Below are positions 15,264 to 23,377 of a stretch of DNA of 43,436 bases, piece by piece; position 1 is the stretch's first letter; each line of letters starts with the position of its first letter. Source of the DNA: Armatimonadota bacterium (GTDB lineage: Bacteria > Bacteroidota > Ignavibacteria > OLB7); contig JADZEY010000103.1 in assembly GCA_020850315.1 (NCBI GenBank), positions 1 through 43,436 on the forward strand. The letters are read 5' to 3'. Both the position numbers and the translations under genes were made by a program. The notes under the pieces were generated by a model. That model was not told where the DNA came from, searched no databases, and saw only the letters and a list, made by a program, of their open reading frames with translations.

Positions 15264-16277
15264 ATGAATATTGCTGTTTTGCTGGGAGGAACATCGCCGG
15301 AGCGTCACGTTTCCATGGCCAGTGGCAAAGGGGTTGCCACGGCCTTGCTTGCCGCCGGGCACACCGTCCACCTGTATGATATTGCGCTTGGAGCCAACGC
15401 CCTGATCTCCTTCAGCGACCTCCACCTTCCCACCGAGCAGGCTCCCGACGATGCCGAGCTTTCCAGTTTCAACAACAACGCGATTATCACTGCTGTGCAA
15501 TCGTTGCCGCAGGATCTTGACGTTGCGTTTCTGGCACTGCATGGCGCGCCGGGGGAGGATGGCACTGTGCAGGGATTGTTGGAGTTGCGCGGAATCCCCT
15601 ACACTGGCTCCAGCGTTCTGGCAAGTGCGCTGGCAATGGACAAAGCAATGTCCAAGCGGGTGATGGAACACTACGATATCCCCACCCCCCGCTGGTTCCA
15701 GGCCACACGCGGGCAACTGGATCCATCAATGCTCCGCTCCCGCGTTGAGCAGTACACCGATTTCCCCGTGGTGGTCAAGCCGAACGATGGAGGCTCAACC
15801 GTTGGGCTTACCATTCTGAACGATGCCGATGGATTGGAGACGGCGTTCCAGCTGGCCGGGCATTACTCGGCAACGGTGTTGTTCGAGGAGTTCATCGAGG
15901 GGCGCGAGCTGACCGTGGCAATTTTGGGGGAGGAAGCCTTGCCGATTGTTGAGATTCGCCCCAAAAGCGGCATCTACGATTACGCCAACAAGTACACCGC
16001 CGGGCGCACCGAATACTTCTGCCCTGCGGACCTTCCCCGCAGCCTTGCCGAAGAAGTGCAGGAGCTTGCCCGACGCGCCCATGCTGCGTTGGGTTGCAGC
16101 GGCTACAGCCGTGTGGATTTCCGGCTGGATACCGATGGCCAGCCGTTCTGCCTAGAGGTCAACACCCTTCCCGGAATGACCGCCACCAGCCTTGTTCCCA
16201 AAGCCGCAGCGGCGGCTGGGATGAACTACCAAGAACTCTGCGAGCAGATTATTCGATTGTCGCGAAGTGGAGGGTGA
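15264..16277 (+). CDS. ddl: D-alanine--D-alanine ligase
   Basis: Ddl joins two D-Ala for peptidoglycan precursors. The 337-aa ATP-grasp enzyme has VLLGGTSPERHVSM at the N-terminus, FLALHGAPGEDGTVQG, the ATP-binding KPNDGGSTVG, EEFIEGRELTVAIL, YDYANKYTAGRTEYFCPA and the metal-binding EVNTLPGMT. Tyr in YDYANKY fits D-Ala rather than D-lactate specificity. ATG 15264 begins directly on the first strand. It stands alone on the plus strand, divergent from the CoA-transferase and convergent with the FG-GAP gene. Confidence 0.95.
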   Translation: MNIAVLLGGTSPERHVSMASGKGVATALLAAGHTVHLYDIALGANALISFSDLHLPTEQAPDDAELSSFNNNAIITAVQSLPQDLDVAFLALHGAPGEDGTVQGLLELRGIPYTGSSVLASALAMDKAMSKRVMEHYDIPTPRWFQATRGQLDPSMLRSRVEQYTDFPVVVKPNDGGSTVGLTILNDADGLETAFQLAGHYSATVLFEEFIEGRELTVAILGEEALPIVEIRPKSGIYDYANKYTAGRTEYFCPADLPRSLAEEVQELARRAHAALGCSGYSRVDFRLDTDGQPFCLEVNTLPGMTATSLVPKAAAAAGMNYQELCEQIIRLSRSGG

Positions 16278-18683: not shown

Positions 18684-19409
18684 ATGACGCAGAACACCAA
18701 CACAAACCCGTGGGGCAAGGCATTTCGCGAGGCACGCACGGTGCTGCTTCCGGTGATTGTTGTGGCCATTGGGTTCAACCTCTTCTCCGCCACTGGCGTG
18801 CCCTGGGTTCGGACCATGCCGCAAGGCCCAGCCATCAGCAACGATGAGCTTTTTGGCGGCGACACCACGGCGGCCCCCGCCAACACGCTCCCCCCCACCA
18901 TTGCTGAATCCCCGCACGACACCGCCACCGCCAACGACAGCGCCGCAGCAATTGCAGCACTGGAACAACAACGGGTTGAGGATTCGCTGAAAGCCGCACG
19001 CAAGGCCGCCGCCGACAGCATCCAAAAAGCAAAAGCCGCCGAAGCCCAAGTGAAAGAAGCCGAGAACGTGCAGAAAGGGACGGTGAAGGAGATCACCACC
19101 GACCAAGCCAAGATGCTGTTCGACCGGAAGAAAGGATTCTGGATAGATGCGCGCCCGGCGGACTTGTACGCCAAAGGGCATATCCCACGGGCAATCAACA
19201 TCTTCCCGGAAGAGCTTCGCAAGCATATCAACGACCTTCCCGCCAGCGATTTGAACACCCTGATTGTGGTCTATTGCAACGGCGGATTATGCGAACTAAG
19301 CCACGAGCTTGCCAACAGCCTGGTGGCAATGGGATTCACCCGTGTGGTGGTTTATACCGGCGGCGAAGCCGAGTGGAGCGAGCGGGGATATCCGCTGGTG
19401 ACGAAGTAA
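18684..19409 (+). CDS. Membrane-anchored rhodanese-domain protein
   Basis: This 241-aa protein has one N-terminal membrane segment (TVLLPVIVVAIGFNLF, about residues 19-34), an Ala/Thr/Pro then Ala/Lys coiled linker (about 60-130), and a C-terminal rhodanese domain. The domain has FWIDARPADLYAKGHIPRA and the active-site loop YCNGGLC with Cys198; a second Cys lies at 203. Rhodaneses pass persulfide sulfur or act in thiol redox. The start at ATG 18684 (MTQNTNTNPWG) is well placed before the membrane segment; the upstream extension is not credible. It is the first gene of a plus-strand run with a MauE-like gene, lexA and ogt. Confidence 0.82.
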   Translation: MTQNTNTNPWGKAFREARTVLLPVIVVAIGFNLFSATGVPWVRTMPQGPAISNDELFGGDTTAAPANTLPPTIAESPHDTATANDSAAAIAALEQQRVEDSLKAARKAAADSIQKAKAAEAQVKEAENVQKGTVKEITTDQAKMLFDRKKGFWIDARPADLYAKGHIPRAINIFPEELRKHINDLPASDLNTLIVVYCNGGLCELSHELANSLVAMGFTRVVVYTGGEAEWSERGYPLVTK

Positions 19410-19446: not shown

Positions 19447-19971
19447 ATGAGCAACCTGATATCTGCTAACTCACCGCTTCTTCCCGAGGAATCCGCACCG
19501 GCGAATACCCCGTTGCTGCAAACCCTTTCGCTTGCGGCACGGCTGCTGGTCGGCTTTGTGATGCTGGTTGCCGGCGCGGGGAAGTTAGGGGCAATCGAAC
19601 AGTTCGGCCACAACATCTACAACTACCAACTGCTCCCGTTATCGCTGGTGAACATTGCCGCACTGCTGTTTATTTGGGCCGAGATCACCATCGGCATTTT
19701 GCTGATTGTTGGCGCGGCGGTGCGGGGAAGCGCGTTGATTAGCGGGGTGCTGCTGCTGCTGTTTATCGCTGCGGTGCTTTGGGCCATGTCGCAGGGTTTG
19801 GAGATTGATTGCGGATGCTTCGGCAACGCCAATGGCGAAGGTGGGGTGAAAGTTGGATGGCCAAAAGTGCTGGAAAATCTGGGGCTGCTTGCCGCCTCCA
19901 TGTTCCTGATCTACTTCCCCCGCTCCTACTTCAGTCTGGATCAGGTTATTCACCAACATTGGGAATCGTAG
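19447..19971 (+). CDS. MauE/DoxX-like four-helix membrane protein
   Basis: This 174-aa protein has four hydrophobic helices and the family motif LVAGAGKLGAIEQF between helices 1 and 2. A CGCFG motif after helix 3 (about residue 122) is typical of MauE-like proteins, which are linked to periplasmic disulfide or thiol maturation. DoxX-like membership is an alternative name for the same fold. It starts 37 bases behind the rhodanese gene. The pair of membrane thiol proteins suggests joint sulfur or thiol redox chemistry; this is inference. Confidence 0.75.
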   Translation: MSNLISANSPLLPEESAPANTPLLQTLSLAARLLVGFVMLVAGAGKLGAIEQFGHNIYNYQLLPLSLVNIAALLFIWAEITIGILLIVGAAVRGSALISGVLLLLFIAAVLWAMSQGLEIDCGCFGNANGEGGVKVGWPKVLENLGLLAASMFLIYFPRSYFSLDQVIHQHWES

Positions 19972-20016: not shown

Positions 20017-20658
20017 GTGATCCGCATATCGCTAACGCCGCGCCAGAACGAGATTTATGAGTTCATCCGCAGCTGCATCCAGCAGCAGGGCGTGCCGCCA
20101 ACGCTTCCCGAAATCGGGGCGCGGTTCGGGATGAAATCGAACAACGGCGTGAACGATCTGCTGAACGTGCTGGAACGAAAAGGCTACATCATCCGCCGCC
20201 GCGGAACCGCACGCGGCATTGCCCTAACCGACCACGCCCCCCCTTCCGACCCAAAAAGCAAAGGGGTGAAAAAGCTGCCAATCGTTGGCGAAGGGGAAGC
20301 ATCCAACCCCATGTCCATGTTTCTGAACCAGCAAGGAACGCTTGCGCTGGACCCCCAGCTTGTCCCCCCCGGCAACGCCTTCCTTGCCGTGGTGGCCGAT
20401 GACGGAATGGACAAAGAAGGGATACTGAAAGGGGATTACGTTGTGGTGCAGCAAAACCCAACCCCACCCAACGGCGCGCTGGTGTTTGCCCTTTCCGGAA
20501 GCGACCAAATCGTCCGCCGCAGCAGCCCCGATGGAGCGCACCTGCTATCGGCCAACCGCTACTATCCAGCCGTCGGGGTTCAGGATTCGGAGAACGTGCA
20601 GATCGTCGGGGAAGTAACCGCAATACTCCGAACCGTGAAGCGGAACCCCGCCACCTAA
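20017..20658 (+). CDS. lexA: LexA-family repressor lacking autocleavage residues
   Basis: This 213-aa LexA homologue starts with GTG 20017. The N-terminal winged helix is canonical: LTPRQNEIYEFIR, VPPTLPEIGARFGMKS and RGTARGIAL (residues 6-70). The S24-like C-terminal domain is full length, but key residues differ from E. coli LexA. The cleavage pair Ala84-Gly85 reads Ala95-Ser96 (GEGEASNP). The nucleophile Ser119 of GMSM is Gly130 (ADDGMDKEG). Lys156 is Arg167 (QIVRRSS). It should bind DNA and dimerise, but not self-cleave with RecA. Cyanobacterial LexA with similar losses is known to have left SOS control. The gene is intact, follows the MauE-like gene by 45 bases and precedes ogt. Confidence 0.88.
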   Translation: MIRISLTPRQNEIYEFIRSCIQQQGVPPTLPEIGARFGMKSNNGVNDLLNVLERKGYIIRRRGTARGIALTDHAPPSDPKSKGVKKLPIVGEGEASNPMSMFLNQQGTLALDPQLVPPGNAFLAVVADDGMDKEGILKGDYVVVQQNPTPPNGALVFALSGSDQIVRRSSPDGAHLLSANRYYPAVGVQDSENVQIVGEVTAILRTVKRNPAT

Positions 20659-20758: not shown

Positions 20759-21271
20759 ATGACCGAACCAGCAGCAACAACCGAACACACCGACATAGCC
20801 CACATCACTATCGCCTCCCCCGCTGGGTTTCTCTCCATCCAAGGGACGCGCCGTGGCGTTAGCGGCATCCGCTTTGTTGAGACCGCCCAACCCGCCACCC
20901 AACGGCTTCCGGCCCCACTGCGCGATTGCGCTATTCAATTAGAGGAATACTTCGCCGGGAAACGGCAGGAATTTTTCTTGAAGTTAGATATGTTCGGCAC
21001 CGAGTTCGAGCAGCGCGTCTGGCAGGAAGTGATGCACATCCCATTTGGCGAAACTCGTAGCTACGGGGAGATAGCCGAGGTGCTGGGAGACACAAAAATT
21101 GTGCGCGCCGTTGGCCAAGCCAACGCCCACAATCCGTTGATGATTGTAGTCCCCTGCCACCGCGTTGTTGCCCACGATGGCGCACTGGTTGGCTACGCCG
21201 GCGGACTTCACCGGAAACGCTGGCTGCTGGATCACGAAGCCAAAGCATCGGGAATGAAGCTGGCGTTGTAA
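20759..21271 (+). CDS. ogt: Methylated-DNA--[protein]-cysteine S-methyltransferase
   Basis: Ogt removes O6-alkyl groups from guanine by moving them to its own Cys. The 170-aa product has the DNA-binding and active-site block RSYGEIAEVLGD, VGQANAHNPLMIVVPCHRVV (Cys133) and the closing GYAGGLHRKRWLLDHE. ATG 20759 (MTEPAATT) is chosen over an upstream Met, whose codons would overlap the promoter-like sequence. It lies behind the LexA-like repressor, so its expression may be tied to that protein. Confidence 0.93.
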   Translation: MTEPAATTEHTDIAHITIASPAGFLSIQGTRRGVSGIRFVETAQPATQRLPAPLRDCAIQLEEYFAGKRQEFFLKLDMFGTEFEQRVWQEVMHIPFGETRSYGEIAEVLGDTKIVRAVGQANAHNPLMIVVPCHRVVAHDGALVGYAGGLHRKRWLLDHEAKASGMKLAL

Positions 21272-22975: not shown

Positions 22976-23377
22976 CTACGGTATGAGGTGGCACCACCGA
23001 CCTCGACCGTCCATGCTGATTCGAATATCAGCAGCCGCAACTGGACAACCCGCGAACGCCGAAATGAACTGCGCTCCCTGATCGCTGTTGAACATCTCCG
23101 GCCCGCCACTGCTGAGCGCTTCCTCCTTGCGGGCTTCGCCCTGCTGTGAACGCGCTACCCGCTTGTCATCAAAGATCGACTCTGCTCCATCAAGCAGCTG
23201 CTTCTTCCATTGTGAAATCTGGTTGGGACGAACCCTATAACGTGCCGCCATCTCGTTGATCGTCTTCTCGCCGCGTAGTGCTTCTGGGCATGATGCTCCT
23301 TCTCCTTGCTGTTAGATCTGCCGCGAATCTACACGACCATCCACCAACTCTTCCTGTCCAAATTTTGGAGTCCACTA
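22976..23377 (-). pseudogene. Internally deleted IS3-family element (orfA-orfB remnant)
   Basis: On the minus strand the frame contains the orfA helix-turn-helix (EKTINEMAARYRVRPNQISQ, then WKKQLLDGAESIFDDK). After a short junction it jumps to the DDE region of orfB: FNSDQGAQFISAF, then IRISMDGRGRW, and then stops. The middle of the element is missing. A likely left end, TAGTGGACTCCAAAATTTGG, lies at 23358-23377. The other inverted repeat is absent. It is a dead transposon fragment between the SRPBCC-SDR gene and radA. Confidence 0.75.

Follow-up and report, generated by a model that had tools for sequence, protein, structure and literature searches.

Can a LexA protein that has lost the residues for self-cleavage still serve as a regulator, and if so, of which genes? 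The question is raised by a gene in a stretch of 43,436 nucleotides, referred to here in its entirety as the window. The gene and the parts of it that matter to the argument are:

20017 to 20658, plus strand: predicted protease-dead LexA paralogue of 213 amino acids, with a GTG start and an intact open reading frame
20029 to 20217, plus strand: LexA winged-helix DNA-binding domain, recognition helix around KSNNGVNDLLNVLE
20299 to 20304, plus strand: Ala-Ser replacing the Ala-Gly cleavage site, codons 95-96
20398 to 20406, plus strand: Asp-Asp-Gly where the catalytic Ser belongs, codons 128-130
20515 to 20517, plus strand: Arg replacing the catalytic Lys, codon 167

By homology, the window protein belongs to the LexA family. 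Its DNA-binding domain (LexA_DNA_bind, PF01726; E=4e-19, 68.5 bits) and its S24 domain (Peptidase_S24, PF00717; E=2e-12, 47.6 bits) both exceed the curated Pfam cut-offs, and the NCBIfam model TIGR00498 (lexA) scores 119.1 bits against a cut-off of 110.95, in agreement with a preliminary description of a full-length LexA with an intact DNA-binding domain. An AlphaFold2 model (mean pLDDT 90.4) adopts the LexA fold, and its best matches in the PDB include E. coli LexA, at an E-value of about 1e-16, and Thermotoga LexA. Alignment to E. coli LexA places A95-S96 at A84-G85, G130 at S119 and R167 at K156, confirming the substitutions that the same description had listed. A self-cleaving LexA is recognized by an Ala-Gly scissile bond and a Ser-Lys dyad; the window protein has Ala95-Ser96 in place of the former and Gly130 and Arg167 in place of the latter. 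By every sequence criterion the protein is thus predicted to be non-cleavable, as had been proposed at the outset, and it would be insensitive to RecA. Alignment to LexA from related genomes, the check suggested in that description, yielded the same residues (AS/G/R) in a relative that is 88% identical (genome G004) and AS/A/R in one that is 59% identical (G002). Since the substitutions recur in both relatives, a sequencing error is excluded as the source of the lost active site. Random decay is rejected as well, because like substitutions mark a single clade.

The extent of that clade was determined by profile searches covering the window's class and phylum. Many relatives carry Arg for Lys together with Gly or Ala, rarely Thr or Ser, as the nucleophile residue, and the Ala-Gly site is absent. 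In a tree of 80 LexA proteins, a sample that contains no cyanobacterial LexA, all 44 Arg-type proteins form a single group with 100/99 support and one state change; with the catalytic columns masked, the group is still recovered (SH-aLRT 92). The lost active site therefore has a single origin in one clade of Arg-type LexA, with members both in Chlorobiota, the window's class, and in a second class (Rhodothermaceae and kin). In the second class the protein is present in 32 of 146 sampled genomes and 15 of 55 genera at E <= 1e-40, and within the window's own family two of five genomes (G001 and G003) have no copy. Two Gemmatimonadota LexA proteins that were examined are both of the normal type. 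Across 33 aligned members D128 and R167 are invariant and D129 is nearly so, and the invariance of D128 and R167 points to selection on the altered site, for which a buried Asp128-Arg167 pair would be a plausible reason. The single Cys of the window protein (C20) is not conserved across the clade. One member, L050 (G142), has Ser as the nucleophile residue, but its cleavage site reads Val-Thr and its Lys is replaced by Arg; it is a possible intermediate or reversal.

The neighborhood of the gene offers a guide to its targets. In the window, the genes adjoining lexA are:

18684 to 19409, plus strand: rhodanese-domain gene upstream of lexA, probable ATG start, outside the conserved system
19447 to 19971, plus strand: gene for a MauE/DoxX-like membrane protein, a neighbor in the window's genus only
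20759 to 21271, plus strand: ogt (O6-methylguanine-DNA methyltransferase) downstream of lexA, probable ATG start, longest open reading frame from 20705

The run of rhodanese, mauE and lexA genes occurs only in G000 and G004, both of the window's genus, and no linkage of ogt to lexA was seen outside the window genome. A different arrangement emerged from the DNA around Arg-type lexA in 40 genomes. In 34 of these genomes, which represent ten families that all lie outside the window's family (f7, f15, f16, f30, f40, f49, f51, f53, f56 and f61), lexA stands head to head with mraZ, the first gene of the division and cell-wall (dcw) cluster. Behind mraZ lie conserved open reading frames that, judged from their sequences, correspond to rsmH, ftsI, mur genes and mraY. 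The same position of mraZ is found in two named records, L021 (Rhodothermaceae bacterium) and L022; in G117 the contig stops short of mraZ. All 14 hold-out genomes of the second class, which were looked at only once the mraZ idea had been formed, combine Arg-type residues with a divergent mraZ at 206-400 bp. The gene lies away from mraZ in the window's family, in G110 and in G181; in G002 it is opposite a HAD-like gene, and in the window genome it occupies the rhodanese-mauE run with mraZ on another contig (C90). Two further features of the window may be recorded. About 4 kb upstream of lexA is a gene for D-Ala-D-Ala ligase (15264-16277, plus strand), a cell-wall enzyme often encoded within dcw clusters; its presence there is probably coincidental. 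A short open reading frame at 22976-23251 on the minus strand resembles the helix-turn-helix start of a transposase and has no Pfam match.

The gaps between lexA and mraZ usually hold palindromes near [G/C]TGAAAATATTTTCA[G/C], that is, of the form TGAA-N6-TTCA. Most members in the second class have two copies close to GGTGAAAATATTTTCACC, about 32 bp apart, with a possible lexA promoter box, TAnnTTTG, immediately downstream. In f15 the palindrome reads CTGAAAATATTTTCAG. In f16 (genus g28) it reads TGAACAAATGTTCA and fills the 17-bp spacer of a sigma-70-like TTGATT/TATATT lexA promoter; this site occurs once per genome, at the lexA-mraZ locus, in five of six genomes. Family f7 (L081-L089, L110) has no TGAA-N6-TTCA palindrome in the lexA-mraZ gap; an element reading GCTAAACTTGTGTT (GCTAAAC) is conserved in its lexA promoter spacer, and its recognition helix is altered, reading STRAV instead of the ST/SN type. 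Away from lexA and mraZ, sequences close to the operator are few, and none of those inspected lies at a recognizable SOS gene. Separately, repeats of the TTCCCCACTTTTCCCCA type, or their reverse complement, precede mraZ in most genomes (e.g., L116 at about 1430-1450), and they resemble the MraZ binding repeats known from E. coli.

When f7, f16 and the window's genus are set aside, 21 of 21 genomes have a site that departs from STGAAAATATTTTCAS by three mismatches or fewer, each site being reached by at most 1.5% of dinucleotide shuffles, as against two of 31 control genomes without the protein; the 21 are, however, mutually related rather than independent trials, and the consensus was drawn from some of them. 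The independent part of this evidence therefore lies with the unlinked genomes and the hold-outs. Of the 14 hold-outs, 11 contain a site that matches with no more than three mismatches. Where lexA is unlinked, G110 and G181 retain the site at mraZ. G002 provides the strongest test: the sole exact match in its 4.7-Mb genome lies 238 bp upstream of mraZ, with none found near its lexA.

The homologous site of the window genome lies some 251 bp upstream of mraZ on contig C90 and has the sequence CTGGCATTTTTTTCAGTAT. Its right half and the spacing to a conserved ATAACGCACAT box are kept and its left half is eroded. This site has four mismatches and does not by itself rise above chance. Half erosion of the mraZ operator is seen in G000 and G004. 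When up to two mismatches to the family palindrome were allowed, the window genome yielded one site only, within a long open reading frame, and no clear palindrome was visible by eye in the upstream regions of the rhodanese gene and lexA. With lexA relocated to the rhodanese-mauE run and half of the mraZ operator eroded, the circuit in the window's genus may have weakened or shifted to other targets. In G003, a member of the window's family without the protein, GTGAAAAGATTTTTAA is found upstream of mraZ (L112) and is perhaps a remnant operator.

The preliminary description had also proposed looking for a second, cleavable LexA, and one exists in the window genome: contig C80 encodes one further LexA_DNA_bind protein with Ala-Gly, Ser and Lys all intact, followed by an open reading frame whose sequence resembles an SRAP/HMCES-type gene. 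The recognition helix of this cleavable LexA is IHQSAVRKHLAALE and that of the window protein is KSNNGVNDLLNVLE; different targets are therefore expected for the two. The upstream region of the C80 gene contains no exact palindrome with 5-bp arms that could be its operator. In 16 of 47 genomes searched, the Arg-type LexA is the sole LexA_DNA_bind protein, and in 13 of those 16 it is the only S24-fold protein found, so that no cleavable LexA- or UmuD-type protein of that fold was detected there. Two proteins of the canonical lineage depart from type: L144 (G454), with DG/A/C, has also lost the catalytic residues and shows much reduced similarity in the C-terminal domain, and L146 (G371), with GG/T/K, has lost catalytic residues and much of the similarity in that domain. 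They represent a possible second loss of cleavage.

The reading to which these results lead, at a probability of roughly 0.6, is that a LexA paralogue has taken on a new role as a regulator, insensitive to RecA, of dcw and of its own gene. Starting from what is observed, namely the residues, the clade, the divergent mraZ linkage and the palindromes, the protein would bind the TGAA-N6-TTCA palindrome as a dimer and thereby block its own transcription, and the same binding would tune how strongly mraZ and the genes behind it are transcribed, presumably without a response to RecA. From these sequence data, repression and activation cannot be told apart. E. coli LexA is reported to repress the dcw cluster through three SOS boxes (PMC3265435), and B. 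subtilis LexA binds a site at an mraZ gene recovered from gut metagenomes (PMC3998124). These precedents make it a credible history that a link between LexA and division was in place and later lost its cleavable input.

Several other explanations deserve weight. The palindrome is usually closer to lexA than to mraZ, so that autoregulation alone would explain most linked cases; the position beside mraZ would then be inherited gene order, with dcw no target at all. The operators do usually sit at the lexA promoter, in f16 within the -35/-10 spacer, but this explanation is unlikely given that G002, G110 and G181 keep the palindrome upstream of mraZ though lexA lies elsewhere, the G002 site being the single exact match of its genome with none near lexA. 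It is also conceivable, if improbable, that a different regulator of mraZ or lexA uses the palindrome and that the dead LexA binds something else. The absence of the motif from f7 would fit, as would the fact that LexA binding is itself a prediction; yet the motif tracks the protein through the 21 genomes and the controls, and f7, which does without the motif, is also the family whose recognition helix differs.

Two further explanations concern the window's genus more directly. The preliminary description had envisaged that the protein constitutively represses local genes, the set being rhodanese, mauE and ogt, and perhaps responds to redox state. All three adjoin lexA in the window, and rhodanese and mauE do so in G004 too, but the idea is unsupported because this context is confined to the window's genus and lexA in most other families faces mraZ; with no clear palindrome visible by eye upstream of the rhodanese gene or lexA and no conservation of C20, it is very improbable. 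That description thus held on non-cleavability and on the second LexA and failed on redox control, and it did not contain the single origin, the mraZ/dcw linkage or the palindromic operator. Alternatively, the protein in the window's genus may have lost its old targets and be on its way out or serving new ones, as the relocated gene, the half-eroded mraZ operator and the missing copies in G001 and G003 would suggest. This is improbable in view of the intact reading frame and DNA-binding domain, the 88% identity between two species, and the retained right half-site with its spacing to the ATAACGCACAT box.

Repurposing as a regulator of dcw and of itself may be set against known systems. Canonical E. 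coli-type LexA (TIGR00498; PF01726 and PF00717) has the same domain order, fold and sequence family as the window protein, which differs in lacking the Ala-Gly site, Ser and Lys, in its recognition helix and palindrome, and in its predicted targets, which are its own gene and mraZ in place of SOS genes. At dcw/mraZ in E. coli (PMC3265435) and B. subtilis (PMC3998124) it is the cleavable SOS repressor that acts, whereas here a separate, cleavage-dead paralogue is encoded beside mraZ. The LexA of Synechocystis sp. PCC 6803 is predicted to be non-self-cleaving and is reportedly no standard SOS repressor (PMC3091678); in that one species the replacements are Gly-Gly for Ala-Gly and Asp for Ser, whereas the Arg-type lineage has Arg for Lys throughout an mraZ-linked clade. 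IrvR of Streptococcus mutans is described as a LexA-like regulator that is an exception to the RecA rule (PMC7101444); it belongs to another phylum and pathway. Non-cleavable LexA and RecA-independent LexA-like regulation are therefore already known. The non-canonical LexA of Bacteroidetes (PMC8565304), likewise an S24-fold regulator from the same broad phylum, has a CI-type N-terminal domain and keeps the cleavage site and Ser-Lys dyad; the window protein, with a LexA_DNA_bind domain and no cleavage residues, is not of that type, and the text of that paper has no mention of mraZ, Rhodotherm- or Chlorobi-. No report of an Arg-type, mraZ-linked LexA lineage was found in the open-access literature.

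It stands at about even odds that the whole bacterial clade uses a RecA-blind, protease-dead LexA as a dedicated dcw regulator and that, in some genera where it is the only LexA or S24-fold protein, "LexA" denotes a division regulator and there is no LexA-type SOS switch. A lexA gene in these genomes is normally read as evidence of an SOS response, and for the Arg-type lineage that reading is probably wrong. If true, a conserved LexA without catalysis, whose predicted regulon at mraZ is very small, would connect the LexA fold directly, and in a testable way, to control of the division cluster independently of RecA. It would also exemplify the conversion of an SOS repressor into a housekeeping regulator.
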